From an uncultured Pseudomonadota bacterium (lineage in GTDB: Bacteria > Pseudomonadota > Gammaproteobacteria > Steroidobacterales > Steroidobacteraceae), in NCBI GenBank assembly GCA_903927005.1, contig CAIYLH010000102.1, positions 1 through 56,458 on the forward strand: a DNA stretch of 56,458 nucleotides, in the 5' to 3' direction. This document shows positions 40,257 through 55,862 of this stretch, one piece after another; position 1 is the first letter of the stretch, and each line of letters opens with the position of its first letter. Made by a program: the position numbers and the translations under genes. The notes beneath the pieces were generated by a model. The model had not been told where the DNA came from. It ran no database searches and saw only the letters and a program-made list of their open reading frames with translations.

Positions 40257-41015
40257 TTACTCGTCGTTCTTCTTGCTGGCAAGTTTTCGTGCTTTGACGC
40301 CTCGGTAGCTCTCGCCGGTGATGTGGATCGTAAGCGCAGCGTGCTCCAGACGATCGCGGATGGCGTCAGCGATGACCGGGTCGGCGATGACCTCTGACCA
40401 GTGATCCAGCGGCAACTGCGTGGTGAACACGGTAGATTTGCCGATCGATCTCTCCTCGAGGATTTCGCATAGATCCTGGGCTTCGATTGAAGCGAGCTTG
40501 CGCATTCCCATATCGTCCAGGATCAGGAGATCGGGTTTGGCAAGTTTGTCGCGGTAACGTAAGTACGTACCACTGGATCTGGCAAGAGCGACATTCTCCA
40601 GCCACGTGGTGACCGTCATGTACAGCACCGACTTGCCGCAAGCGCAAGCATGCAGCCCAGTGGCCTGGGCGAGGAACGTCTTGCCGACGCCGGTCTGTCC
40701 GATCAGCAGCACAGGCCGACCCTCACTCAACCACTGCAGTCCGTACAGTTCTTTGATCTGTGCCTTGCTGATCGAACGGCTGGCTGTGAAGTCGATGTCT
40801 TCGAACGCGGGTCGCAACGTGAACTTGGCGGCTTTGATCCGGTAGCCGGTCTTTCGATCTTGCCGATAATCGCTCTCTGCCTGCAGCAGCATATCGAGGA
40901 ACTCGGTGTAGCTGGTCTGATCGCGGGTCGCAGCAGTGATCGCGTGGTCGAAGGCTGCGAACATGCCGAGCAGTTTCATATCGACCATGAGGTTCTTGGC
41001 AACAGCGGTACTCAT
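40257..41015 (-). CDS. istB: IstB helper ATPase of IS21 element
   Basis: The 252-residue AAA+ ATPase has the IstB/DnaA-like domain with Walker A GQTGVGKTF near residue 106 and Walker B LLILDDMG near residue 167, and the late sensor region DAIRDRLEHAALTIHITG. IstB selects target DNA and stimulates IstA. Its ATG overlaps the istA stop (ATGA). Length is normal and no frameshift is seen. Confidence 0.95.
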   Translation of the reverse strand: MSTAVAKNLMVDMKLLGMFAAFDHAITAATRDQTSYTEFLDMLLQAESDYRQDRKTGYRIKAAKFTLRPAFEDIDFTASRSISKAQIKELYGLQWLSEGRPVLLIGQTGVGKTFLAQATGLHACACGKSVLYMTVTTWLENVALARSSGTYLRYRDKLAKPDLLILDDMGMRKLASIEAQDLCEILEERSIGKSTVFTTQLPLDHWSEVIADPVIADAIRDRLEHAALTIHITGESYRGVKARKLASKKNDE

Positions 41016-42577
41016 AACGGGGACTTCTCCTGGAGTGACGTGGACGGAACGTTAGTGACAACATCGGCGGCCACATGCGCGGCGCGGGCGTAACGCAGCA
41101 TGGGATTTCCGGGGCGGCGCACGATCTCGCGCTCCGCCGCCAGCGGCATGACTGATTGCTTGCGTGCCTGCGCCAGCAGTGCCTGGAAGTACGGCACACG
41201 GTATTTGTCGTAACGGCGCATGGTGGCGATAGCGGCTCCGATCCGCGCCTTGGCCACCTCGTGGCCGGCAGCATTGATCTCCTTGGTGCAGCTGCGCACA
41301 AAGCCCTGACAGCGCCGCAGATGACCGTAGACATCCGCGTTGAACAGCTCCACGAACAGCTGATTTAGGTCGGGATGGATAAACCGCGACTGCGACAGCA
41401 GCCTTTGCGGTGTCGCCTCGTAGTACGCCTGCGAGGCCGGCGGGAAGTGCGCGTCGATCTTGATGCGCCTGCCATCGCGGTGACGACTGCGCGGGTGGAT
41501 CGCCAGCCGCTCAAGGTTCAGGAAGATCTCGACCTGGTTCTCGGTGAGCTTGATTCGCAGGACCTTGTGCCGGTGGATGTGCGGGGCGCTGTACAGCACC
41601 CCCTCCACCAGTACGTAGCAGTCAGGATGCAGCGTTGCCTTTGCCCACTCTCCGTTGTCGTAGTCGTTGAGCGGCAGCGGCTTGAGTGCTGCGCGTTCCA
41701 GCGCCTCGAAGCGCTCTCGGCGCGACACCCGGAAGCGCGTGTGAGGCCGCGCATTTATCCGTTCCACGCACTCAGCCAACGCTTGGTTGATCTGTGCCAG
41801 CGAGGTAAAACGGCTACGGCGGTAGCGGAAGCGCGCGTAGCGCATCAGGATCTTGACCAGACCCTCGACGATAGCCTTGTCCTTGGGATGGCCCGGGCGT
41901 GCCGGCACCACGGCCGTCGCGTATTGGCTCGCAAGCTCTGCATAGCCGGGGTTCAGATCCGGATCGTACAGGTGACACTTGAGAACGCCTTGCTTCAGGC
42001 AGTCGGGCACGGTCACGTGCGCAACGCCACCGTAGTACGTAAACATGCGCCGATGCGCGCCGAGCCAGTTACGGCTCTTCATGTCCTCGGCTGCCCAGGC
42101 AAACAGCAGCTGGCTAAAACCCAGGCCCGCGACAAAGACGTACGCCTTGCGCAGCTCGCCCGTCTTCAGCTCGAGCCACTCGATCGTGTCGCCGGCGTAG
42201 TCGACCTCAATGCGCTCGCCAGGTTCGAACTCGCGGGCCGTGACAGACGCTTCCCGGTACTGCGGGAACTTGCGGTAAAGCTGCTTCCAGAAGTTCGGAT
42301 AGCTCGTCAGCTCCTGGGCCTTCTCAGCCCAGAGGAACTTCAACGGATACCCAAGCCCCAGCTCATGCACGATCGTCGGCCAATCCAGCTGCTGCATCCA
42401 CAGCGGGTCGGCCAGCGGCTTGGGGGTGTCCGGCGAGTTCCTCAGCCCGTCACGGACCTCCCGCACCGTGTCGCGCGAGCACGCCAGCGCCCGGGCGATC
42501 TCGCGCACCCCGCGGCCCTCCACCAGCCGCCGCCGGATCTCCTCGTATCGCACCACCGTCATGCTGCGTGAGCCCAT
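41012..42577 (-). CDS. istA: IstA transposase of IS21 element
   Basis: From ATG 42577, preceded by AAGGAGAG, the protein has 521 residues. It has an N-terminal helix-turn-helix (VREIARALACSRDTVREV), an rve-type DDE integrase domain with D in RIEVDYAGDT, a second D near HVTVPDCLKQG and E in HPKDKAIVEG, and a C-terminal Mu-like beta domain. The frame is open upstream to 42691, but that part lies in the terminal region. All catalytic residues are present. Confidence 0.93.
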   Translation of the reverse strand: MGSRSMTVVRYEEIRRRLVEGRGVREIARALACSRDTVREVRDGLRNSPDTPKPLADPLWMQQLDWPTIVHELGLGYPLKFLWAEKAQELTSYPNFWKQLYRKFPQYREASVTAREFEPGERIEVDYAGDTIEWLELKTGELRKAYVFVAGLGFSQLLFAWAAEDMKSRNWLGAHRRMFTYYGGVAHVTVPDCLKQGVLKCHLYDPDLNPGYAELASQYATAVVPARPGHPKDKAIVEGLVKILMRYARFRYRRSRFTSLAQINQALAECVERINARPHTRFRVSRRERFEALERAALKPLPLNDYDNGEWAKATLHPDCYVLVEGVLYSAPHIHRHKVLRIKLTENQVEIFLNLERLAIHPRSRHRDGRRIKIDAHFPPASQAYYEATPQRLLSQSRFIHPDLNQLFVELFNADVYGHLRRCQGFVRSCTKEINAAGHEVAKARIGAAIATMRRYDKYRVPYFQALLAQARKQSVMPLAAEREIVRRPGNPMLRYARAAHVAADVVTNVPSTSLQEKSPL

Positions 42578-42725
42578 ACCGTCCTCTCCTTCGTGTCTGG
42601 ACACGACGGTAGCGGCAAGGCTGGACGGCGGGCTGACGCAGCCCACATCTGGCTCGTTCTGGTCGGATATCGACATCTGGGACCACTCCAACGCCCTGAC
42701 GGGCGCCTAAAAGCGCTCCGCCGGT

Positions 42726-42817
42726 GGTCCCCAACTGAGGAAATCGGGTGGTCCCGAACTCAGGAAATCAGGTGGTCCCCAACTCAGGAAATCGCCTGGT
42801 CCTCAAACAAGGAAATT
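42726..42817 (+). repeat. IS21 right-end internal repeats (4 copies, 24-bp period)
   Basis: Four 20-bp copies of the consensus GGTCCCCAACTCAGGAAATC start at 42726, 42750, 42774 and 42798, exactly 24 bp apart, in inverse orientation to the two left copies. The outermost copy is the most diverged. The regular phasing suggests several IstA binding sites on this side. Confidence 0.85.
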
Positions 42818-42822
42818 CTGCA

Positions 42823-42826
42823 AGTA
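42823..42826. repeat. IS21 target-site duplication, right copy (AGTA)
   Basis: Second AGTA copy, directly after the right terminus. Confidence 0.7.
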
Positions 42827-42859
42827 TCGGCCTTTCCAGTCACCGTCGAGGCTTCGAGC

Positions 42860-44326
42860 ATGAATTATCGGCACCGCCTGTTTAGGACCCGCTTGGCCTT
42901 TGTAAGTACCGCGTTGCTGTTTTGGACAGCTACGGGCGCCGCCGTTGGCGCGACGCCTTCGGATCCTCCTGTGGATCCGGGCATTTTATCGCGGATTGTG
43001 GCAGCGGCCATGAAGGGCGACTGGGCCTACGACCGGCTGACAGAACTCACCGACCGTATCGGCCCTCGCTTGGCTGGTTCGCCGGGGCTTGAGGCGGCAG
43101 TTCAGCAGGTCGCTGGGGTGATGCGCGCTCTAGGCGCTACGGTCACGTTGCAACCGGCACGTGTACCGCACTGGGTGCGTGGTGATGAGCGGGGGGAGCT
43201 CGTTGTGTATCCCGGGCAGCCAAAAGGGATAACGCAACGCCTGCATCTGGTCGCGCTCGGTGAGTCAGGAGCGACCGCTCCTGCGGGACTGACCGCACGG
43301 GTTGTGGTGGTGCACGACTTCGATGAGTTGAAGGCGCGCGCGTCCGAGATTGACGGCAATGTCGTGCTGTTCGACCTCCATTTCGACCAGCGCCTTGCGA
43401 TGAACGGCAATGCCGGGAACGCCTATGCGCAGGGTGGGGTTGGACGCTTCGTGGGGCCATCGGCGGCTGCAGAGCTTGGCGCGATCGCTGCGCTGGTGCG
43501 CTCAGTGGGTGGCGCGGAGTACCGGCTGCCGCATACCGGCGCCACCGAATGGAAAGAGGGGCAGGTGCCGATTCCGGCCGCCGCGGTTTCGGCCGAGGAC
43601 GCCGACCTCATCGATCGACTGGCAGCGCGCGGCCCGGTGACATTGAAGCTGCTGCTGACGCCGCGAATGCTGCCAGATGCCGATAGCCACAACGTGATCG
43701 CTGATTGGATGGGGAGGGAAAAGCCTGACGAGTTTGTAGTGGTTTCTGGGCATTTGGATTCCTGGGACCTAGGCACCGGCGCCACCGACGACGGCGTCGG
43801 TGTAATGGCAGCTGCCGGCGCGATTGAGGTGCTCAAGCGCTTAGATCTGCATCCTCGGCGAACGGTCCGTTTCGTCGCCTGGACCAACGAGGAAAATGGA
43901 GGCCGTGGCGCGAAGGCGTACTTTTCCTCCGTTGCGTCCGCGGTAGATAAGCAGGTGGCGGCCATTGAGAGTGATGAAGGCGCAGGGCGCTCTCTCGGCT
44001 TGTTGGCGGCGGTGACGCCGGAATCGTTGGTTACCCTGAAGCCCGTTGCGAAGGCGTTAGCGCCGATCGGCGCGACCGTCGTGGAGAAGAGGGACGACGG
44101 CGTAGGGTCCGATATCGGGGCTTTGCAGCATGCGGGCGTACCAGGATTCGCGCCGCTCGTCGCTACCCAGCACTATTTCGACTACCACCACACCGCGGCG
44201 GACACGCTCGATAAGGTCGAGCCGGAGAACTTGCGCACCCAGATTGCAACGATGGCTGTGCTCGCCTACTACCTGGCGGAACTGCCGGAGCCACTACCGC
44301 GCTTCAAGGTGGAGGACGCTGAGTAG
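42860..44326 (+). CDS. Secreted M28-family metallopeptidase
   Basis: The 488-residue protein has a signal peptide (about residues 1-30, ending AVGAT), a PA-like insert (about 120-240) and an M28 di-zinc peptidase domain. Metal ligands are visible as H298 in SGHLDSWD, D310 in GATDDGVG, the Glu pair in TNEENGGRGA, D in IESDEGAG and the final His in YHHTAADT. It would be an aminopeptidase or carboxypeptidase outside the cytoplasm. The start at 42860 gives the signal peptide. The IS21 right end lies 37 bp upstream and probably replaced the native promoter. Confidence 0.9.
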   Translation: MNYRHRLFRTRLAFVSTALLFWTATGAAVGATPSDPPVDPGILSRIVAAAMKGDWAYDRLTELTDRIGPRLAGSPGLEAAVQQVAGVMRALGATVTLQPARVPHWVRGDERGELVVYPGQPKGITQRLHLVALGESGATAPAGLTARVVVVHDFDELKARASEIDGNVVLFDLHFDQRLAMNGNAGNAYAQGGVGRFVGPSAAAELGAIAALVRSVGGAEYRLPHTGATEWKEGQVPIPAAAVSAEDADLIDRLAARGPVTLKLLLTPRMLPDADSHNVIADWMGREKPDEFVVVSGHLDSWDLGTGATDDGVGVMAAAGAIEVLKRLDLHPRRTVRFVAWTNEENGGRGAKAYFSSVASAVDKQVAAIESDEGAGRSLGLLAAVTPESLVTLKPVAKALAPIGATVVEKRDDGVGSDIGALQHAGVPGFAPLVATQHYFDYHHTAADTLDKVEPENLRTQIATMAVLAYYLAELPEPLPRFKVEDAE

Positions 44327-44436: not shown

Positions 44437-45207
44437 CTATTCGGCGACCAGCGCGGAAATGCCGCCCTTGTAGTAAGGGCTGGAGAAAAGCACCTTCGTC
44501 GCGCGCTCTGGCGTAATCGTGATACACGCGCCGATCATGTCGACCTTGCCCGATATGAGTGCCGGGATCATGGCTCCGAAATCCATGTTCACGACTTCGA
44601 TCTTTCGATTGAGGCGCTTCGCGACCAGGCGTGCGAGTTCGACGTCCAAACCCACAACTTCGCGCGAACCATCGACGAACGAGAACGGCTCGGTGACTGC
44701 GGCTGTTCCGAACCGCAGTGCGGCGCCAGTGCCTTCCTCGATCTTCGGCATCGGCGCTGGCGATCCCGACTCAGGCAACCAGCGCTTCATCATTGCCGCG
44801 TACTCGCCATTCGTCTTGAGGTCCGCGACAACGGCATCAATGGCGGCCTTGAGTTCGGTGTCCGGCAAACGAACGGCGAAGCCATAGTCGTCAACGGTGA
44901 TGGGCTCCGGCAATACCTTGAGGCCAGGATTCTTCGCTGCGATGTTGCGAAGGATCGGCTCGTCGTATCCTGCTGCATCGGCCTTGTGCGCTTTTACCGC
45001 GAGCGCGGCATCCAGCACGGTGTTGTAGTACTTGATCTTCACGGTGGGGTACTTCGAAAGCACCAGCTGGTCCGCGACAGTGCCTGTCGGTACCGCGAAC
45101 TCCTTGCCCTCAAGTTCCGAGACCGTGCTGATTTTGGCGCGGCTGCCGCATCCGGCAAGAGACGCCGCTGCCAGCAGAGCACACAGTGCCAATAGGAATT
45201 TGTTCAA
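44437..45207 (-). CDS. Circularly permuted SBP_bac_3 lipoprotein
   Basis: A 256-residue lipoprotein from TTG 45207 (GAGGGG 6 bases upstream), with lipobox LAGC at Cys20. Solute-binding proteins of the GlnH/HisJ type normally have lobe 1 first. Here the lobe 2 features come first (VSELEGKEFAVPTGTVAD near residue 28, KTNGEYAAMMKRWL near 125), and lobe 1 follows (TEPFSFVDGSREVVGLDVEL, MDFGAMIPAL, ITITPERA). The protein ends where a normal one would cross between lobes. It likely binds a polar amino acid and is divergent from the fused transporter gene. The 250-bp intergenic region should hold both promoters. Confidence 0.85.
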   Translation of the reverse strand: MNKFLLALCALLAAASLAGCGSRAKISTVSELEGKEFAVPTGTVADQLVLSKYPTVKIKYYNTVLDAALAVKAHKADAAGYDEPILRNIAAKNPGLKVLPEPITVDDYGFAVRLPDTELKAAIDAVVADLKTNGEYAAMMKRWLPESGSPAPMPKIEEGTGAALRFGTAAVTEPFSFVDGSREVVGLDVELARLVAKRLNRKIEVVNMDFGAMIPALISGKVDMIGACITITPERATKVLFSSPYYKGGISALVAE

Positions 45208-45457
45208 GCTCGACCCCTCTAGTTCTAGTTCTGGTTCTGGACGTGCGACGCCAGATTGCGCTGCCGGATTATATTCACGAATCGGTTCACCGGCGGGGAC
45301 ATTCTGGGATATCGACACCGCTGTGCCCCAATTATGCCTTGTGGCGCCACTTTGCTCAGGGGGCGGCTGGGTCGTCCTCGCAGCCAAAAGGGACTATCGG
45401 GCCCCCATTTCGATTAAGCTGCGTCGGTCCTAAAAGAAGAATTAGACGCAGGAACTC

Positions 45458-47704
45458 ATGAAACGCCTTATTCCCAAGTGGTTCGTTCTGCTTGTCTGCC
45501 TGGGCCTTGCCGGTTGTAACCACGACGGCAGTGTCATCACCAGCGTGCAAGATGCCGCCACGGCCCGTATCGGCGTCATGGTGGGGACGACTAGCGAGCT
45601 GATCATGGCTCAGCAGTTCCCCAAGGCTGACGCCAAGCGTTTTGACGACATCATGGATGCCATCGGCGCGCTGAAGACGGGGCAGCTCGATGCGGTGCTC
45701 ACGGGCTATCCTGCCGCTCTGCAGGTTTCCAAGAAGAATCCGGATCTCGCCTTAATAGAGGAGCGCCTGTCGCACGAAGACACGTCGATCGCGGTCCGAA
45801 AGGGCAACGGCGCCCTGTTACAGCAGGTTGACGAGATCATTTCTGGCTTCAAAGCCGACGGTACGCTGGCGGCGATGGGCGTGCGATGGCTGAAGAAGGA
45901 TCTGACGCCCTACGAGGAAGTAGCAATTCCGCTCCCGAAGGAGGGCGTGCCCATCAAGATCGGCGTTAGCGCCACCCGGGAGCCCTTCAGTTTCGTCGAC
46001 GCAACTGGCCAGATCACCGGCCATGATGGCGAGCTCGCCCGCCGAATTGCCGCGAAAATGCACCGTCCTATCCAGTTCCTGGACATGAAGTTCATGGCGC
46101 TTATCCCGGCGCTGCAAGCAGGCAAGATCGACTTGATCGTCACAGGAATGAGCGCCACTCCCGAGCGGCGCAAGAAGGTCGACTTCACGCAGCGCTACTA
46201 CGAGTTGGCGCAGGTACTGCTGGTTCGTTCGGCTGCAGCTGCTGTTGCCAGTGTGCCTAAGCCGGAGGGGCTGCGGTCGCTGACCGACCTAAAGAAGGGA
46301 CGCATCGGGGTGCTAACTGGTAGTGCGCACGAGGTATACGCGGTAAAGAACTACCCCGAGGCCGAGATTCTGCAGTACCGCGGGGTGTCAGATTTGGCGC
46401 TTGCCGTCAGTTCCAGGAAGGTCGACGCTGCGCTGTCCGATGAGGCGCCATTTAAGGATTTACAGCTTCAGGACGCTAGTTTTGCCCTCCTGGGTGAGCC
46501 GTTGTTCACTTTTGATGTGGGCGTCGGATTTCGCAAGGAAAACACTGCGCTGCGCGACCAGTTCAACCACTTCCTGGCGGACATCAAGGGCAACGATGTT
46601 TATAGGGAGATGGTGCATCGCTGGTTGGAGACACCTGACCCCCAGATGCCGCCGTTGAAGGATGAGCCCAGTCTGCCGCCACTGAAGGTCGGCATCACTG
46701 ACGGCGGTCTGCCGTTTGCAGGCATGAAGGAAAACCTGCACGTCGGGCTTGACGTGGAGTTAACGCAGCGATTCGCACAGTCCATCGGCCGGCGGGTTGA
46801 GTACGAAAACATGGATTTCGGGAGTCTTGTCGCTGCCGTGGCGAGTGGCAAGGTGGATCTGATCGCCAGTGCGATTTACATCACACCCGAGCGCAAGGAG
46901 CGTATTAACTTCTCGGATCCCTACTTTCAGATGGCGACTATCGCCTTCACTCTTAAGAGTCGCTTGGCGGGGAGTGCCGCGAGCGTTACGGTTCCCGCTA
47001 AGCCTTCATTCTGGCAGCGGACGGTCGATAGCTTCGTCAGCAACATCATCCGCGAGCACCGCTACCTGCTGCTGTTGGATGGCCTCAAGACCACCATGCT
47101 CATCTCCATTTTGGCGTCCATCTTCGGAACCATGCTGGGGGCTGGCATCTGTTACATGCGCCTTTCCAAACGTCTTTTATTGCGACTGCCGGCCCGTGTC
47201 TTCATCGACATTCTGCGCGGCATGCCCGTGCTCGTATTGCTGATGCTGATTTTCTATGTGGTCTTTGCCTCTGTGGACATCAGTCCCGTGCTGGTTGCGG
47301 TCGTCGCATTTGGACTGAACTTCGCCGCCTACGCTGCTGAGATTTTCCGGTCCGGCATCGAGGGCATCGACAAGGGGCAGACGGAGGCGGGCATATCTCT
47401 CGGTTTTACCCGTACATCAACTTTCATTTACATCGTCATGCCGCAGATGATCCAACGGGTTCTTCCGGTCTATAAGGGCGAGTTCATCTCCCTCGTTAAG
47501 ATGACGTCGATCGTCGGATATATAGCGGTTCAGGATCTCACCAAGGCTAGTGACATTATTCGAAGTCGGACGTTCGACGCCTTCTTCCCGTTGGTCATGG
47601 TCGCAGTACTGTACTTTGCCGTGTCGTGGGTTCTCATTCAGTTGCTCGACTTCATCGAGCGAAGAACTGATCCTAAGCGCCGTCGCGAGGAGTCGCACCG
47701 ATGA
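45458..47704 (+). CDS. Fusion of two permuted substrate-binding modules and amino acid ABC permease
   Basis: A 748-residue lipoprotein-permease fusion. After the lipobox LAGC (Cys20) come lobe 2 (about 28-148), lobe 1 (165-258), lobe 2 (268-392) and lobe 1 (408-500), then a HisM/GlnP-type permease with five helices (about 540-735) and the EAA-type loop near [20 protein letters not shown]. The order 2-1-2-1 gives two binding modules with permuted lobes. It would import a polar amino acid together with the adjacent ATPase, whose start overlaps by 4 bp. AGGAA precedes the start ATG. Confidence 0.9.
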
Positions 47705-48810
47705 TCCGCATACAAGGTCTTTCGAAAAGCTTCGGCACGCTACGCGTCCTCGACAACGTCAGTACCGAGATAAAAAAGGGTGAGGTTGTCTCGATCATCG
47801 GGCCATCCGGTTGCGGAAAGAGCACATTTCTGCGCTGCCTTAACCTACTGGAGCAGCCGGACAGTGGCGTTGTAGAGGTGGATGGGACGGATATTGTTGT
47901 GCAGACAGCCAATGTCGCTCTGGTTCGCCAGAAGATGAACATGGTATTTCAGTCATTCAATCTGTTCGCGCACCTTTCGGTGCTCGATAACCTGACGCTT
48001 GGTCCGATAAAGCTCAAGGGTGTTGAGCCAGCGGAGGCCGAGAAGCACGCCATGGAATTGCTGCGACTCGTGGGGTTGGGTGAGAAGGCGCGGAGTTTCC
48101 CTGAGGATCTGTCCGGTGGGCAGAAGCAGCGCGTAGCGATTGCCCGCTGCCTTGCGATGGAGCCTGAGGTCATTCTCTTTGATGAACCCACCTCGGCGCT
48201 AGATCCGACCATGGTTCGGGAGGTGCTTTCCGTGATTCGGCGCCTCGCGAAGCAGGGCATTACGATGGTCATCGTGACTCACGAAATGGAGTTCGCACGC
48301 GATGTGTCGTCCAGGGTCTTCTACATGGACGCCGGCGGTATCCATGAGGAGGGTACGCCACAGCAAATGTTCGATAATCCGCAGAAGGCCAAGACGCGTG
48401 CATTCATCAACCGCACGCGAAGCTGCGAGTTCACCATCAGTTCAGGTGATTTTGACCTTTACGCGATGAATGCCGAAATCGAGACCTTCTGCGAACGGCA
48501 AGTGCTGTCACATCGGACTCGGCACACGCTGTTAGCGCTGGTAGAAGAAATTCTGCAGGCGCATGCGCCTATAGTCGGCTCCGCGACGCTCTGGTTGTCC
48601 ATCGACTATTCGGAGAAGGGCAATAGACTCGAGCTTATTTGCGAGAACGACGCTGCACCGTTGAACGCGCTTGAGGGCGATCACCTACCGGACGATCTCG
48701 CGATCACGATCGTCCGCAGCATGACCGACTCGATCGAGTACAGCCACGTAGGTGGACGAAATCGACTCGAGTTGGTGGTCAAGCAGGGGACGCCGAACAT
48801 CGATAGCTGA
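47701..48810 (+). CDS. Polar amino acid ABC ATPase with C-terminal HATPase-like domain
   Basis: Residues 1 to about 243 are a GlnQ/HisP ATPase: Walker [10 protein letters not shown] (34-42), Q-loop [11 protein letters not shown], signature LSGGQKQRV, Walker [13 protein letters not shown] and H-loop VTHEMEFA. The last 120 residues resemble an RsbW-type HATPase fold ([58 protein letters not shown]), but the N-box Asn and DxG motif are not conserved, so ATP binding by this domain is doubtful. It may be a regulatory domain. Overlaps the permease gene by 4 bp. Confidence 0.88.
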
Positions 48811-49414: not shown

Positions 49415-49981
49415 TCACGGCTCGGTTGAGTCGCCGTCTTGTGCTGCTTCGTTGCTGCCTTCCTTCTGCATTGCCGCATACCCCGCCGGGCTAAGAGTAG
49501 GCAGCTTGCGCAGGAACGCGACGATGTTCCAGATCTCGGCATCGTCGTGGGTTGAACCCCACGCCGGCATTCCGCTCATCTTGATGCCGTGCTTGATCGC
49601 CCAGAAAGCGACGCGCGGGTCCTCAATCCCGCGCTGGGCCAGATTTGGGGGTTGCGGGTAGAGTCCGGGCCGAAGCTCGGATTCGGAAACTCCCGGCGCC
49701 ATATGGCACTCCGTACACATTGCCGCATAGTGTTCCGCACCCTCCGAAATCATCGCCGGATCGTTGAGCGCAGGCACCGGGATTCCCTCCGCGTGGTGAG
49801 CCAGAGCCCGTTGCCGCACCTGCTCAAGGACCCTCAGCGTCAACATAGAGTGAGGTGAGTCGGCGCCAATGTTGTACATCCCCGACCAGATTGCGGCTGC
49901 CGTTCCTACTCCGATCACGAGCAGGGCGGTGGCGGCGCCGATAGCAGCAAAGACAAGACCCCGTCGTCGGTCGGTAATCAC
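49415..49981 (-). CDS. Membrane-anchored cytochrome c
   Basis: The 188-residue protein has an N-terminal hydrophobic anchor (about residues 10-32) and one cytochrome c domain with haem motif CTECH (residues 89-93) and probable axial Met in SGMPAWG, followed by DDAEIWNIVAFLRKLP typical of class I cytochromes. The C-terminus is polar and low complexity. It starts 63 bp after the RND pump gene on the same strand and may be part of the copper cluster, perhaps as an electron carrier. Confidence 0.88.
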   Translation of the reverse strand: MITDRRRGLVFAAIGAATALLVIGVGTAAAIWSGMYNIGADSPHSMLTLRVLEQVRQRALAHHAEGIPVPALNDPAMISEGAEHYAAMCTECHMAPGVSESELRPGLYPQPPNLAQRGIEDPRVAFWAIKHGIKMSGMPAWGSTHDDAEIWNIVAFLRKLPTLSPAGYAAMQKEGSNEAAQDGDSTEP

Positions 49982-50043
49982 TTAGGGACTCCTAACAAAG
50001 GAAATTTTTCGCCTGATCTGCGACTTGATAGCAATTGAGGCAT

Positions 50044-53000
50044 TCATTCCAGGTTCGCCGTGACAAGCGCGCGTTCCTTCACTAGCGCGTAGATCGCCGG
50101 AATCACCAATAGTGTCAGGACTGTTGCTGACACCATGCCGCCCACCATGGGTGCGGCAATTCTGCGCATGATTTCCGATCCTGTCCCTGTGCTCCACATG
50201 ATAGGCAGAAGTCCTGCCATGATTGCGACGACCGTCATTATTTTCGGACGTACACGCAATACCGCGCCATGAATGATGGCTTCGTTGAGATCATTCACCG
50301 TGATGGTGCGACCCCCTGCCTTGCAAAGTGCCACGGCCTCGTCCCAGGCGCGATCAAGATAGATCAGCATGACCACGCCCGTTTCCGCGGCAACTCCAGT
50401 CAGTGCAATGAAGCCGACGGCAACCGCGACGCTCATGTTGTAGCCGAGTAGGTACATTAGCCAAACGCCGCCTACGGCCGCGAACGGGACTGATGCCATC
50501 ACGATAAGCGTTTCCGTCATCCGTCCAAAGTTGAGAAACAGCAGCACAAAAATTATTAGTAGCGTGACTGGTACGACGATCTTGAGCCGCTCTATCGCGT
50601 GCTGCATGTACTCGAACTGGCCGCTCCAGGTGACGTAATAGCCTTCCGGAAAGTGCACTTGGGCATTTACTGCTCGCTGGGCTTCAGTGACGTAGCCGCC
50701 GATGTCTCGGCCGTGGATATCGACAAATATGTACGCTGAAAGAAGAGCGTTTTCGGTGCGAATGCTAGGAGGCCCTTGGACGATTTCGAGCTTTGCCAGT
50801 TGCCCCAGCGGCACCATGCTTCCATTTGCAACAGGGACCAGGACATTGCGTGCGATTGCCTCCGGTCTGTCCCGCAGCTCCCTCGGGTACCGGACGGTGA
50901 CGTCGAATCGCTGGCGTCCCTCAACGGTGGTCGTGACGACTTCGCCACCCAGCGCGGCTGCGACAACGTCGTGGACCTCGCCAACAGTTAGCCCATAACG
51001 ACCTAGCGCATCAGGGTCCGGCACGACGTCGAGGTAGTAGCCACCGGTCAGTCGTTCAGCGTACGCGCTGGTCGTTCCCGGCACGGTACGGACGACGGCC
51101 TCAATTTGTTTTGCGACCCGATCCATCTCGTTCAGATCGTTGCCAAACACTTTGATGCCGATCGGGGTCCGGATGCCCGTAGACAGCATGTCCAGGCGAG
51201 CCTTGATTGGCATCGTCCACGCGTTACTAATTCCGGGCAGCTGCACAGCCTTGTCCATTTCCGCGATCAGGCGATCTATCGTCATCCCCGGACGCCACTC
51301 CTGTTCTGGCTTGAGGTTGATGATCGTCTCTGACATCTCCAGCGGCGCGGGGTCAGTCGCAGTGCTTGCGCGTCCCGCCTTTCCGAAAACAGATTGCACC
51401 TCGGGAAAGCTCTTCAGGATTTGGTCCTGTGCCTGCAACGCGCGTGCCGCCTGGGTTACCGACATTGCTGGCAGACTGGACGGCATGAACAGGAGTGTCC
51501 CTTCATTTAGCGTCGGCATAAATTCCGTGCCTAGGCGCAGCGCAGGGAATGCAGTTGCAGCGACGATCGCAAGCGAGGCCACCAGCGTCAGCGTCTTCCA
51601 GCGCAGCACCCACGCGATAACCGGCCGGTAGCAGTAGATGAGGCTGCGGACGAGGGGGTTGGACTTCTCCGATGGGATTTGGCCGCGGACGAAAACCAGC
51701 ATCAATGCCGGAACGAGCGTAATTGATAGCAGCGCGGCACTCGCCATTGAGAAGGTCTTGGTGAGGGCGAGCGGCCGGAACATGCGGCCTTCCTGGGCCT
51801 CGAGTGTGAATACCGGCAGAAACGATACCGTGATAACCAGCAGGCTGAAGAATAGCGCCGGGCCGACTTCGCGGCAGGCCGCGATGATTGCAGGAAGCCG
51901 CGGGGCGCCAGGCTTCAGCGTCTCAAGATGCTTGTGAGTGTTCTCGATCATTACGATCGTTGGGTCAACCATCGCACCGATGGCGATGGCGATGCCACCC
52001 AGACTCATGATGTTGGAGTTAAATCCGAATGCACGCATGCCAGCAAATGCCATGAGAACGCCGATCGGCAGCATGAGGATCGCCACCAAGGCGCTGCGGG
52101 CGTGCATCAGAAAGACCAGGCAGACTAGCGCCACGATCAGGCTCTCTTCCAGCAGTGTGTGGCGCAGGTTGCGCACCGCACGCAGGATCAGGTCGGCGCG
52201 GTCATAAACCGGGGTGAGGGTGACCCCGGCCGGCAGGCCGGCGCCGATCTCTTGGATTCGGGTCTTGATGCCGGCGATGACGTCCAGAGCATTCTGCCCA
52301 TAACGGGACATAGCAATGCCCGCCACGACTTCGCCCTCGCCGTTGAGCTCTGTAATTCCACGGCGTTCGTCTGGAACGAGCTCGACCCGGCCAATGTCGC
52401 GCACACGCACTGGTGTGCCGGCGACTGACTTGAGGACGATTCCCTCCAGATCGGCTATGCCTCGCAGGTAGCCCCGACCGCGGATCATGTACTCCGTTTC
52501 GGCCAATTCTACTGAGCGACCACCCGAGTCATGGTTGCTCATGCGGATCGCTTCGGTGACCCGGTTCAACGGAATACCGTAGGCCTGCAGGCGGCGAGGG
52601 TCGACCGTAACCTGGTAGGTGCTGACGAAGCCGCCGACGCTGGCCACCTCCGCTACGCCCGGCGCCTTGGTCAGCTGATAGCGTATGAACCAGTCTTGAA
52701 TGGCCCGCAGTTCTCCGAGTGACCTCTGCTTGGCCTGCACGACGTACTGGTATACCCAGCCCACGCCGGTCGCATCTGGCCCCATCGTCGGTGTCACACC
52801 TCGCGGTAGTCTGTTTGCTGCTGCGTTCAGGTACTCAAGGACCCGCGAGCGTGCCCAGTAGATATCCGTGCCGTCCTCGAAGATGACGTACACGAACGAA
52901 ACCCCGAAGTTCGAGAAGCCGCGCACGACTTTGGTTCTCGGCACGCTGAGCATTGCCGTTGACAGCGGATAGGTGACTTGGTCCTCGACGACTTGAGGCC

Positions 53001-53169
53001 CCTGCCCGGGGAATTCTGTATAGACGATGACCTGTACATCAGACAGGTCTGGAAGTGCGTCCAGGGGGGTATGGAGGAGTGCATAGATGCCGACGCCGAC
53101 GACACATGATGTCGCGAACAGGACGATGAGGATGTGCCGCGCTGACCATTCGATGATACGACCTAGCAT
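50044..53169 (-). CDS. cusA: CusA-type heavy-metal RND efflux pump
   Basis: The 1041-residue inner-membrane pump belongs to the heavy-metal RND family. Motifs include FPGQGPQVVEDQVTYPLSTA near the N-terminus and, in helix 4, GGIAIAIGAMVDPTIVMIEN, closer to CusA (Cu/Ag) than to CzcA. Methionines such as those in the pore region (AWTMPIKARLDMLSTGIRTP) agree with monovalent metal. It uses proton motive force to export Cu(I)/Ag(I) from the periplasm through CusB and CusC. Length is normal. Confidence 0.93.
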   Translation of the reverse strand: MLGRIIEWSARHILIVLFATSCVVGVGIYALLHTPLDALPDLSDVQVIVYTEFPGQGPQVVEDQVTYPLSTAMLSVPRTKVVRGFSNFGVSFVYVIFEDGTDIYWARSRVLEYLNAAANRLPRGVTPTMGPDATGVGWVYQYVVQAKQRSLGELRAIQDWFIRYQLTKAPGVAEVASVGGFVSTYQVTVDPRRLQAYGIPLNRVTEAIRMSNHDSGGRSVELAETEYMIRGRGYLRGIADLEGIVLKSVAGTPVRVRDIGRVELVPDERRGITELNGEGEVVAGIAMSRYGQNALDVIAGIKTRIQEIGAGLPAGVTLTPVYDRADLILRAVRNLRHTLLEESLIVALVCLVFLMHARSALVAILMLPIGVLMAFAGMRAFGFNSNIMSLGGIAIAIGAMVDPTIVMIENTHKHLETLKPGAPRLPAIIAACREVGPALFFSLLVITVSFLPVFTLEAQEGRMFRPLALTKTFSMASAALLSITLVPALMLVFVRGQIPSEKSNPLVRSLIYCYRPVIAWVLRWKTLTLVASLAIVAATAFPALRLGTEFMPTLNEGTLLFMPSSLPAMSVTQAARALQAQDQILKSFPEVQSVFGKAGRASTATDPAPLEMSETIINLKPEQEWRPGMTIDRLIAEMDKAVQLPGISNAWTMPIKARLDMLSTGIRTPIGIKVFGNDLNEMDRVAKQIEAVVRTVPGTTSAYAERLTGGYYLDVVPDPDALGRYGLTVGEVHDVVAAALGGEVVTTTVEGRQRFDVTVRYPRELRDRPEAIARNVLVPVANGSMVPLGQLAKLEIVQGPPSIRTENALLSAYIFVDIHGRDIGGYVTEAQRAVNAQVHFPEGYYVTWSGQFEYMQHAIERLKIVVPVTLLIIFVLLFLNFGRMTETLIVMASVPFAAVGGVWLMYLLGYNMSVAVAVGFIALTGVAAETGVVMLIYLDRAWDEAVALCKAGGRTITVNDLNEAIIHGAVLRVRPKIMTVVAIMAGLLPIMWSTGTGSEIMRRIAAPMVGGMVSATVLTLLVIPAIYALVKERALVTANLE

Positions 53170-53181
53170 GGTCCGTAATCC

Positions 53182-54501
53182 CTAGTGCTGCAGGCGGTCG
53201 AGCGCGGGCGGTGTGCTACCACTCGACGCATGTCCGCCAAGTGCGCCGATTGCGGCGCGCAGGTTGCTTTCTGAGTCGATCAGGAAGTTGCCATTGACCA
53301 CGACGGCCTCGCGGTCAGCAAGGCCGCTGAGTATTTCGATGTAACCGTCAGCATGCACGCCAGTCCGGACGACTCGCGGCTCGAACTCACCTTTTCCACG
53401 GTCGACCAGCACAATCTGGCGCGTGCCGGTATCCAGGATCGCAGAATCCGGGACTGCAAGGAGTGGCGTGGCGGCCCCGGCGGCGAGTTCCACGGTGCCG
53501 TACATCAACGGCTTGAGCTTGCCGTCAGGATTTGTGAGCTCCACACGTACCTGCACGGTACGCGTCTCGGCCTGCAGCACTGGCGATACAAACGCGATCC
53601 TGCCCTTAAAGGTCTTGCCCGGATAGGCAACGAAGGAGGCGGTGACTGGTGCGGCGACACGCACGAGGGCCAGATCCTGCTCAAACACGCTGCCGATAAG
53701 CCATATCGAGGATAGGTCAGTTACTTGATACAGCGCGTCGCCGGGCATGAAGCGCAGACCCACGCGAGCTGTCTTCTCGGTGACTACGCCATCACGTGGC
53801 GCGCGCAGCAGTAGGCTCTTGCGGGGTTCCTCGCCAGCGCGCAGTCCGGCCAGGTCGGCTTCGGCGATGTCCCAATTGCTGAGCCGCTCGAGGCTGCTGC
53901 GTACGAGGTCGCGCATGTGTGCGTGCGCCCCAGAATCGCCTTCGCTGAGTGCGTCGAGTGCGCGGACCGCGACGCGATAGTCCTGTTGCGCCGCAAGCAG
54001 GTCCGGGCTGTAGACCTCGAGCAGAGGCTGCCCGCGGTGGACCGGGGCGCCAGTCGTGTCAACCAGCATGCGGGTGATCCAGCCCTCAAACTTAGGGCTG
54101 ATTGTCGACTGACGGCGCTCGTCGGGCTGCAGCGTGCCGACGATTCGCAGCGTCTGCGTGAGGGAGCGAGGTGCCGCCATTTCGGTTCGGACGCCGAGCT
54201 TCTGGAGCTTCGCCGCATCGATTCTGACCGAGGAGCCGCCAAATTGCTCATCGGCATAGACGGCGACGTAGTTCATCCCCATCGCGTCTTTCTTCGGCAC
54301 TGGCGACGTGTCCGGCAAGCCCATTGGGTTTCTGTAGTACAGCACGGCGCGTTCTGTCGCTACCCCAGCGGCAGGCTGTGTCGATGGGAAAGTGGCAACT
54401 GGCGTCGTTAGGGCCACGGGGCGAGTTGAAAACCAGAATGCGACTGCGAAGATCGCGGCGAGAGCGATCGCGTTGATGGCGAGGGCAGTACGGTGTTTCA
54501 T
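53182..54501 (-). CDS. cusB: CusB-type membrane fusion protein
   Basis: The 439-residue adaptor has an N-terminal membrane anchor (about residues 5-25), then YYRNPMGLPDTSPVPKKDAM and GMNYV, the Met-rich Cu/Ag-binding region of CusB, followed by the beta-barrel, lipoyl and helical hairpin domains (to about residue 410). It transfers metal to CusA and links it to the outer channel. Overlaps the outer-membrane gene by 4 bp and is 12 bp before cusA. Confidence 0.93.
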   Translation of the reverse strand: MKHRTALAINAIALAAIFAVAFWFSTRPVALTTPVATFPSTQPAAGVATERAVLYYRNPMGLPDTSPVPKKDAMGMNYVAVYADEQFGGSSVRIDAAKLQKLGVRTEMAAPRSLTQTLRIVGTLQPDERRQSTISPKFEGWITRMLVDTTGAPVHRGQPLLEVYSPDLLAAQQDYRVAVRALDALSEGDSGAHAHMRDLVRSSLERLSNWDIAEADLAGLRAGEEPRKSLLLRAPRDGVVTEKTARVGLRFMPGDALYQVTDLSSIWLIGSVFEQDLALVRVAAPVTASFVAYPGKTFKGRIAFVSPVLQAETRTVQVRVELTNPDGKLKPLMYGTVELAAGAATPLLAVPDSAILDTGTRQIVLVDRGKGEFEPRVVRTGVHADGYIEILSGLADREAVVVNGNFLIDSESNLRAAIGALGGHASSGSTPPALDRLQH

Positions 54502-55862
54502 AGCGGCCGATGCTCCAGCGATACGGTGCCGGGCGCATGGCCCGTAAGAAATTCAATTTCGACCACAGCTTTATTGTGGCTGGCGACCGCGTCTGCCTCG
54601 CCTAACGCCGTTTCGTAGGTGCGCATGCGTGCTTCGAGCAGCGTCAGGAAATCCACACGCCCGACCTGATAGGCCGCGAGCGCAGAGTCGAATGCGGCAG
54701 CCGTTTGTGGTCGCAGAGTTGAGTGATACAGCGATGCGCTTTGGCGTTGTTGCTGCTCTTTGGAAATCGCGCGCTGCAGCGCAGCGCGCGTCTCCAGTCG
54801 TTGGCTCTGTGCCATGCTGATTGCCTCTCGGCGCATTGCGCTTGCTTCTGCGACGCGAGGCTCAAGACGATTCTTGCGCCACACCGGTAGGTTCACTGCA
54901 ACGGTCAAGGTGACCATGTCGTCGCGCGGGACTCCGTCGAGTGAACGCTCGCGCTGTCCGTAGTTGAACCGAACCTCGAAATCCGGGTAGTAGTCCCGTC
55001 GGGCGAGGTCGAGGGCGCGGTCGCTCTTGTCTACCAGCGCTGCGAGGGACTTCAGCTGTGGGCGTTGGTCCAGAGCTTCGTCCTGCAGAGATTCGGCTTT
55101 TAGCGGCGCAGTCAGCAGGGTTGCCGCGGTTGGCGTGATCAACATTGCGCGATCGTCGGTGCTGCCGAGCAGACGCTGCAGCTCGCTACGGTGGGCTGTC
55201 TCCTCGTCAGCCAAACGCAACTGCTCCTGCTGCATCCTTACAACTTGTACTTGCGCCTGTAGAGAATCGCTCTGGGTAGCCTGCCCGACTGCATAACGCA
55301 TCTGCGCGATGTTGACGAGTTGGTGCAGCGTTTCGATGGTTTCGGCGACTAGTTTCCTCGAATTCAGGGTCAGGCGCAGTTCCTCGTAAGCTACACGTAC
55401 ATCTCGTGTCACCCGGTTGACGGTCTCGTCTACAGCGAGCGAGATGCTCTGCGCATCAGCGGCGGCGACGTGTCGGCGCAGCTCGCGCTTGCCGGGGAAT
55501 GGCAGCTTTTGCGAAAGGCCGAGCATCTTCATCGTCATGTCGTCTCGCCTCAGGCTGACGGGAAGCGGTGCATTGACGATACCGATTTCCAGCATTGGAT
55601 CTTCCAGCGCTGCGGCAGGGGCGACTCGCTGGGCTGCGGCGTCGGCTTCCGCACGGGCGGCAGCGACGTCCGGGTTGTGCTGCAACGCTATGTCCAGAAG
55701 TGGTCCGATCGGTGTCGCTATTGCATCGCCTGTCGAGGCGATATCTGCAGCTGCTGCCGGCGCGGCGAGGCAGAATTGCTCAAGCAGAGTTGCCGCCAGC
55801 GCAACCATAAACACGCTGGCAAGTGGCTTATGGGGCCATGCCCCATACAGACGGAATCTCAT
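54498..55862 (-). CDS. cusC: CusC/TolC-family outer-membrane factor
   Basis: The 454-residue protein has a signal peptide (cleavage near AAPAAAADIAS) and two outer-membrane-efflux repeats with long helices, starting with LLDIALQHNPDVAAARAEAD. It lacks a lipobox, so it is closer to CzcC/TolC than the lipoprotein CusC of E. coli. It would complete the tripartite efflux complex with CusB and CusA. The 118 bp before it separates it from copL. Confidence 0.9.
   Translation of the reverse strand: MRFRLYGAWPHKPLASVFMVALAATLLEQFCLAAPAAAADIASTGDAIATPIGPLLDIALQHNPDVAAARAEADAAAQRVAPAAALEDPMLEIGIVNAPLPVSLRRDDMTMKMLGLSQKLPFPGKRELRRHVAAADAQSISLAVDETVNRVTRDVRVAYEELRLTLNSRKLVAETIETLHQLVNIAQMRYAVGQATQSDSLQAQVQVVRMQQEQLRLADEETAHRSELQRLLGSTDDRAMLITPTAATLLTAPLKAESLQDEALDQRPQLKSLAALVDKSDRALDLARRDYYPDFEVRFNYGQRERSLDGVPRDDMVTLTVAVNLPVWRKNRLEPRVAEASAMRREAISMAQSQRLETRAALQRAISKEQQQRQSASLYHSTLRPQTAAAFDSALAAYQVGRVDFLTLLEARMRTYETALGEADAVASHNKAVVEIEFLTGHAPGTVSLEHRPL

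Follow-up and report, generated by a model that had tools for sequence, protein, structure and literature searches.

How the two lobes of a substrate-binding protein (SBP) are ordered along the chain, and which of them close together on a ligand, is the question raised by two neighbouring genes in contig CAIYLH010000102.1 (assembly GCA_903927005.1) of an uncultured Steroidobacteraceae bacterium (Gammaproteobacteria); the whole contig, 56,458 nucleotides, is called the window here. One gene encodes a lipoprotein with a single SBP_bac_3 module, the other a 748-residue fusion of two such modules with a permease domain. An earlier note on this DNA had claimed that the lipoprotein reads lobe 2 then lobe 1, that the fusion reads 2-1-2-1 before its permease, and that all three modules are permuted in the same way, so that either each module folds as a permuted domain or the first lobe 2 of the fusion pairs with its last lobe 1. 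Our analysis confirms that all three SBP_bac_3 modules are lobe-swapped (2-1), and the evidence on pairing supports the first of these two readings.

Both proteins match SBP_bac_3 (PF00497; E-values of 5.4e-33 for the lipoprotein and 4.5e-66 for the fusion), yet the lobe-1-before-lobe-2 order of that family is found in none of the three modules. In the lipoprotein it is the C-terminal residues, 164-254, that align to profile positions 1-90, the start of the family in Pfam, and alignment with PDB entry 6svf_A likewise swaps the halves, residues 164-250 corresponding to positions 12-98 of the chain (E 1.2e-16) and residues 27-146 to positions 111-229 (E 2e-16). The fusion is swapped in the same manner against AncQR (4zv1), with residues 166-259 matching 12-105 and residues 26-145 matching 108-231. 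Hidden Markov models (HMMs) of the separate lobes agree with these alignments in every module, reading the lipoprotein as 2-1 and the fusion as 2-1-2-1-T, where T is the permease domain that Pfam places, as BPD_transp_1, at residues 559-737. A normal lobe 1 lying ahead of each lobe 2 would have spoken for an ordinary arrangement; what precedes the first lobe 2 in both proteins is only a signal peptide with a lipobox, and the lobe HMMs find no lobe-1 match upstream of it in either window frame. The window's own lobes served as seeds for these HMMs, which are thus not independent of them. Even so, they do not impose the 2-1 order, since the controls read 1-2: no other order was seen in 28 of 28 SBP_bac_3 control loci of the phylum, picked by a ranking on full-model Pfam score that itself favours normal order, and nine normal proteins within the fetched loci also read 1-2. 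From the lipobox and from relatives, the lipoprotein probably starts at the TTG at 45207.

The arrangement recurs well beyond the window. A scan of 84,980 species genomes, restricted to two permease peptide patterns, gave 209 relatives, the best 80 of which were kept as loci L057-L136 (at least three pairs of these come from one assembly each). A 2-1-permease fusion is present in 80 of the 80 loci. Their open reading frames (ORFs) comprise 53 two-module, 17 three-module, six four-module and two one-module fusions, one Thermotogae fusion with an extra 2-1 after the permease and two fusions cut by contig ends. Besides the fusions there are 17 standalone 2-1 proteins, a solitary lobe 1 at the edge of a contig and two proteins of normal order. 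Over all fetched loci, arrays of the form (2-1)n-T number six with one module, 61 with two, 19 with three and seven with four, and there are 27 standalone 2-1 proteins; because one contig occurs in both locus collections, six proteins are counted twice in these array tallies. Among the six one-module fusions, that of L040 is cut in its permease by a contig end and that of L114 follows a three-module fusion.

Five alignments were made. A1 holds seven of the eight two-module fusions of the first locus set (L052, cut in the permease, was left out) and A2 nine of its ten standalone proteins, the window's included (L044, whose start is unclear, was left out). A3 joins the window lipoprotein to all 17 standalone proteins of L057-L136 and to 46 of 77 picked modules, one per locus, A4 joins the window fusion to 50 of the 53 two-module fusions of those loci (three cut by contig ends were dropped), and A5 joins the window's C-terminal ATPase segment to 35 of the other 81.

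Linker lengths, co-variation and predicted structure all bear on which two lobes make up a module. With duplicates removed, the linker leading from lobe 2 to lobe 1 measures 13-18 residues in the fusions (standard deviation 1.2, n=203) and 14-16 in the standalone proteins (n=27), whereas that leading from lobe 1 to the lobe 2 of the next module ranges from 0 to 33 (standard deviation 5.6, n=114); the 1-to-2 step in the nine normal proteins is -4 to 0. Variation such as that of the 1-to-2 linkers is the behaviour of an inter-domain spacer, and a hinge should not tolerate it. Mirror-tree comparison of 56 two-module fusions points the same way, the correlations being high within modules (r(2a,1a) 0.904, r(2b,1b) 0.816) and low both across them (r(1a,2b) 0.227, r(2a,1b) 0.311) and between like lobes (r(2a,2b) 0.306, r(1a,1b) 0.219). 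In trees from which 15 identical lobe pairs had been removed beforehand (289 to 274), nearest-neighbour lobe groups agreed within modules in 228 of 229 cases, at junctions in 31 of 114 and for outer pairs in four of 81. The AlphaFold model of the lipoprotein (64 sequences; scores in the table below) is a single domain that begins with lobe 2 and the closing helices belonging to it and passes through an ordered linker into lobe 1; ten-residue means of the predicted local distance difference test score (pLDDT) along this linker exceed 90. That of the fusion (51 sequences) has a pLDDT of 80.7 and a predicted template modelling score (pTM) of 0.40, with pLDDT below 50 at residues 243-248, the linker from 1a to 2b, and at 487-493, between 1b and the permease. 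Taken together, the one-module fusions, standalone lipoproteins, linkers, co-variation and lipoprotein model support the 2-1 pair as the module.

The same evidence serves to weigh the other ways in which such a chain could be read. Since 1a-2b is collinear with normal SBPs, and the best Pfam stretch in the fusion runs over residues 166-391 (profile 1-131), the array might be register-shifted, its middle lobes forming a normal SBP and its outer lobes, 2a and 1b, pairing with each other. Such an arrangement is hard to reconcile with the existence of one-module fusions and standalone 2-1 proteins, with the variable 1-to-2 linkers and the low correlations across modules, or with the low pLDDT at the 1a/2b junction. 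Moreover, when single normal SBPs such as 4zv1 are aligned with the fusion model in Foldseek, some 250 columns are covered but the root-mean-square deviation (rmsd) is about 21 Å, and the stretch so aligned, which we infer to be 1a-2b, does not appear to be arranged as a normal SBP in that model. Canonical 1a-2b pairing is rejected on the junction pLDDT, co-variation, rmsd and linkers, and the 2a-1b pairing that the earlier note had entertained falls with the one-module and standalone forms, co-variation and linkers; we therefore consider a register shift highly improbable. Circular permutants and tandem repeats are able to swap domains, and on this general precedent lobes could instead pair between chains, in a swapped dimer or shared by lipoprotein and fusion. 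Against this stand the confident monomeric fold predicted for the lipoprotein, the almost constant 2-to-1 linker and the assignment of the window lipoprotein and the two fusion modules to three different groups, A, D1 and P, which together make pairing between chains unlikely, if less so than a register shift. Finally, most of the 80 records are labelled as metagenome-assembled genomes (MAGs), as would suit a lobe order created by assembly or gene fusion. However, the recurrence of the 2-1-permease fusion refutes an artefact of either kind, and records without the MAG label are included, among them Novosphingobium arvoryzae, Methylobacter marinus, Nitrosomonas communis and Trichlorobacter thiogenes; we give this reading next to no probability.

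Table. Features of the permuted locus in the window, with the evidence for each
Feature	Coordinates	Strand	Evidence and remarks
Lipoprotein, one permuted SBP_bac_3 module (2-1)	44437..45207	-	Lipobox LAGC; AlphaFold pLDDT 95.8, pTM 0.90; module group A
Lipoprotein lobe 2, including the closing helices that end normal SBPs	44767..45150	-	Lobe HMM E 7e-43 (HMM contains this sequence)
Lipoprotein lobe 1; protein stops right after last strand	44440..44724	-	Lobe HMM E 1e-35; Pfam SBP_bac_3 profile 1-90
Fusion 2-1-2-1-permease, 748 residues	45458..47704	+	Lipobox LAGC; Pfam, PDB alignments, lobe HMMs, AlphaFold
Lobe 2a; Gly at canonical alpha-amino-binding Asp position	45518..45901	+	Lobe HMM E 2e-41; AncQR alignment; module group D1
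Lobe 1a; TxxR Arg retained	45947..46237	+	Lobe HMM E 2e-37
Lobe 2b; Asp retained (SDEAP)	46256..46636	+	Lobe HMM E 2e-44; module group P
Lobe 1b; Arg retained	46676..46963	+	Lobe HMM E 1e-35
Permease domain, HisM/GlnP type	47048..47683	+	PF00528 E 5.4e-18; TIGR01726 E 9.8e-20; Foldseek 4yms_D TMt 0.82
GlnQ-like ATP-binding cassette (ABC) ATPase domain	47701..48414	+	PF00005 E 1.2e-35; NF007027 E 1.9e-88
ATPase C-terminal domain, apparently degenerate HATPase_c_2 (anti-sigma-kinase)-like	48421..48789	+	Family HMM E 3e-46; window HATPase_c_2 E 0.06

The residues that would contact a ligand are retained to differing degrees in the permuted modules. An arginine of lobe 1 holds the carboxylate of the ligand, and a serine or threonine and an aspartate of lobe 2 are also ligand residues, the aspartate serving the amino group. 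Counted with duplicates retained, the TxxR arginine is present in 242 of 244 modules, and 235 of 244 have the serine or threonine in the loop of lobe 2. The aspartate depends on position, occurring in 22 of 27 standalone proteins, 64 of 94 membrane-proximal modules, 47 of 88 second, seven of 27 third and none of seven fourth modules, and in the one module that lies after a permease. Distal modules mostly lack it, and their ligand may accordingly not be an alpha-amino acid. In the window it is kept in the lipoprotein and in module b and replaced by glycine in module a; the retained arginine and aspartate suggest amino acids as ligands of the first two, and module a may bind another carboxylate.

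These observations lead us to a model in which the locus encodes a polar-amino-acid-type (GlnPQ/HisQMP-like) ABC importer with natural circular permutants of SBP_bac_3 as its tethered receptors, a reading that we hold to be very probable. In this model the 13-18-residue linker would bridge the places in lobe 1 where a normal SBP has its N terminus and its C terminus, and the new termini would lie at the hinge, on the strand leading out of lobe 1 into lobe 2. Each 2-1 unit would close on its own ligand, with several such units connected in series at their hinges and tethered to the permease, and the separate lipid-anchored 2-1 protein would act as an additional receptor. Dimerisation of the fusion probably takes place via its single permease domain, and the dimer probably engages two ATPase copies; the additional anti-sigma-kinase-like domain at the C terminus of the ATPase probably regulates activity. 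Several points weigh against this reading or blunt the evidence for it. The lobe-group labels derive from a tree of within-module pairs, so the agreement counts lean towards the module, and the lobe correlations, although independent of those labels, owe something to differences in module type from protein to protein. At so low a pTM, the model of the fusion does not fix the placement of its modules, and parts of its permease also fall below a pLDDT of 50. The lipoprotein model has only modest whole-length matches in the PDB; the highest TM-scores among the 50 matches listed are 0.50 and include that of OpuAC 2b4l (TMq). Lastly, the nine normal controls, some of which are enzymes, keep the arginine in seven cases and the aspartate in four.

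The next gene after the fusion (47701-48810, + strand) encodes an ABC ATPase followed by an apparently degenerate HATPase_c_2-like domain. Walker A, signature, Walker B and H-loop patterns are present in 82 of 82 family ATPase ORFs, and the permease of the fusion is the only one of the His/Glu/Gln type (TIGR01726) found in the genome, the assembly being 97% complete by the tool's figure; import is therefore favoured, and the importer is perhaps the organism's only one of its class, to judge from the genome sequence. The two other SBP_bac_3 proteins of the genome are of the lytic transglycosylase and chorismate mutase types. In the latter, at G000:C70:44448-44705, a type II chorismate mutase domain is joined to the SBP_bac_3 domain, and this protein is probably a cyclohexadienyl dehydratase.

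The system might instead be mainly a sensor, its permuted receptors and ABC core reading amino acids and driving a partner-switching circuit, made up of a SpoIIE phosphatase, a STAS antagonist and an RsbW-like kinase, through the C-terminal domain of the ATPase. A GlnQ-like ATPase with such an anti-sigma-kinase-like domain occurs in 68 of the 80 loci, and a SpoIIE, STAS or RsbW-like gene lies close by on the same strand in 29 (SpoIIE in 23, STAS in 23, RsbW-like in eight). ORFs of these kinds are more numerous in near than in far flanks (535 versus 427 kb; SpoIIE 23 versus 5, STAS 31 versus 5, RsbW 16 versus 2), and Pfam identifies Cache-HAMP-SpoIIE, STAS, HATPase_c_2 and NMT1/THI5 proteins among example neighbours. 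On the other hand, 51 of the 80 loci have no such gene nearby (34 of 80 flanks are cut short), the window has none among its ORFs of at least 100 residues at E 1e-6, and the ATPase motifs are intact throughout, as in a working importer. HATPase_c_2 is matched at E ≤0.1 in 26 of 36 of the C-terminal domains (best 2.5e-6), the window's scoring 13.8 bits against a cut-off of 27.4. The domain itself seems stripped of kinase residues: by eye, its consensus VEExLQL keeps the two glutamates but lacks the N-box asparagine of RsbW-type kinases, which lone RsbW-like genes have (VEEAFVN). Signalling is thus attractive where lineages hold partner-switch genes, and overall a minority reading that we consider possible but doubtful. 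Somewhat less likely again is a receptor-transporter hybrid, in which hinge-cut, permuted receptors tethered to the ABC core would transmit occupancy as glutamate receptors do by way of almost the same break point, and would report it via the pseudo-kinase domain of the ATPase to the SpoIIE/STAS/RsbW circuit; were it true, an ABC importer would be wired to partner switching, a connection for which we found no description, for ABC ATPase or importer, in open-licence papers. In L106:4218-12376, L114:4162-14371 and similar loci, an operon-like row holds an NMT1/THI5-like binding protein, a Cache-HAMP-SpoIIE phosphatase, the permuted fusion, the ATPase, a STAS protein and sometimes an RsbW-like gene. 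At L088:3846-5597 (- strand), a permease, presumably of the uracil/xanthine type, has a C-terminal anti-sigma-kinase-like match and adjoins the operon.

The importer with permuted receptors is spread widely and thinly. Record labels, which can be wrong for MAGs, assign the 80 loci to about a dozen phyla: Proteobacteria including Geobacter-/Desulfo-type groups (44), Gemmatimonadetes (8), Ignavibacteria, Chlorobi and Bacteroidetes (5 each), Firmicutes (4), Verrucomicrobia, Thermotogae and Kuenenia-labelled records (2 each) and Hydrogenedentes, Acidobacteria and Chloroflexi (1 each). Among 98 related genomes, 12 (the window's own included) match at E ≤1e-100; all belong to the window's taxonomic family, and its genus, represented by 15 genomes, accounts for seven. 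The fusion is sparse outside this family, and a common occurrence in the phylum is ruled out by a sample in which one of 299 genomes, the window's own, matched at E 1e-60, with at most three candidate stretches scored per listed genome. Plasmid carriage was rejected, tblastn against 72,556 plasmid records giving no match at E 1e-60. The patchy spread may reflect horizontal transfer. In the joint tree a single clade takes in all 229 permuted modules and two of the 45 normal sequences (support only 0.14); the lobe-1 tree likewise groups all 229, with nine normal sequences (support 0.55), and the lobe-2 tree groups 228 of them with one normal sequence (support 1.0); this is consistent with, and does not prove, a single origin of the permutation. 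Outside the permuted clade of the lobe-2 tree lies a divergent 2-1 lipoprotein of Pelotomaculum (L084:3940-7902), from a cluster in which the permease is a separate protein and two ATPases are encoded. In the Thermotogae loci L103:7983-11789 and L135:2-2533, a further 2-1 after the permease produces the order lobe 1, membrane domain, lobe 2.

The earlier note could recall no description of this architecture. For SBP_bac_3 this holds, in that we found no permuted member described in the open-licence literature (PMC3779223, PMC2912341 and PMC12667903 contained nothing relevant), but permuted binding proteins as such are known (PMC2395249, PMC4990184). Nor is a solved permuted SBP_bac_3 protein evident among the best 60 of 485 PDB sequences; the two of these with a best stretch collinear over almost the full profile are tandem proteins, 6h30 and 4q0c. 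The top Foldseek match of the lipoprotein by E-value is the GlnPQ tandem 6h30, at 19 Å rmsd, which has a 2-1 stretch spanning two domains. GlnPQ of Lactococcus likewise has tandem SBP_bac_3 receptors fused N-terminally to a HisM/GlnP permease (HEQRo type; PMC8025302) and a separate GlnQ-like ATPase. Its substrate-binding domains run from lobe 1 to lobe 2, whereas those described here run from lobe 2 to lobe 1, number one to four and come with an extra C-terminal ATPase domain. Circular permutation has been described for glycine-betaine and molybdate binding proteins and CysB (PMC2395249), and OpuAC/ProX share with our proteins a natural permutation of the type II binding-protein fold. OpuAC 2b4l aligns with the lipoprotein model over 280 columns. 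However, no OpuAC family is among the Pfam matches of either protein at E ≤1 (HMMER filters drop most weak matches), and the lipoprotein is 49% identical to AncQR over 84 columns; the permutation is therefore, on this sequence evidence, most likely independent of that of OpuAC. TpMglB-2 of Treponema pallidum ("Type Ic") is also natural, permuted and membrane-tethered, with relatives in other bacteria, but shows the sugar-binding type I/cluster B fold, reordered inside the N lobe and not cut at the hinge, with separate permease and ATPase (PMC4990184).

A likeness of another kind, to the break point of glutamate receptors, is a lead for mechanism only. The Pfam family Lig_chan-Glu_bd, which we take to be the S1 half of the glutamate receptor, reaches position 111 of its 115 at residue 254 of the 256 in the lipoprotein. 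In ionotropic glutamate receptors, prokaryotic ones included, the break in the chain falls at roughly this position and the membrane domain follows lobe 1, although there the lobes are split around a pore and here they are reordered and joined to an ABC permease (PMC2950845).

Elsewhere in the window, an IS21-type IstA/IstB pair (40257-42691, - strand) lies upstream of an M28 peptidase gene (42593-44326). Beyond the ATPase gene, 49415-55862 (- strand) encodes a cytochrome c, an AcrB-family pump, presumably of the CusA type, a CusB/HlyD-type fusion protein and an outer-membrane efflux protein.

The lobe-swapped modules would add to a well-studied amino-acid receptor family a natural circular permutation with its break at the hinge, the site at which the channel is inserted in glutamate receptors. 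In a plain family search such proteins appear simply as SBP_bac_3, and their lobe order stays hidden. As normal and permuted forms are close in sequence, the effects of chain order on closure, tethering and transport become directly testable. The extra domain of the ATPase and the neighbouring signalling genes, for their part, suggest a link between uptake and regulation.

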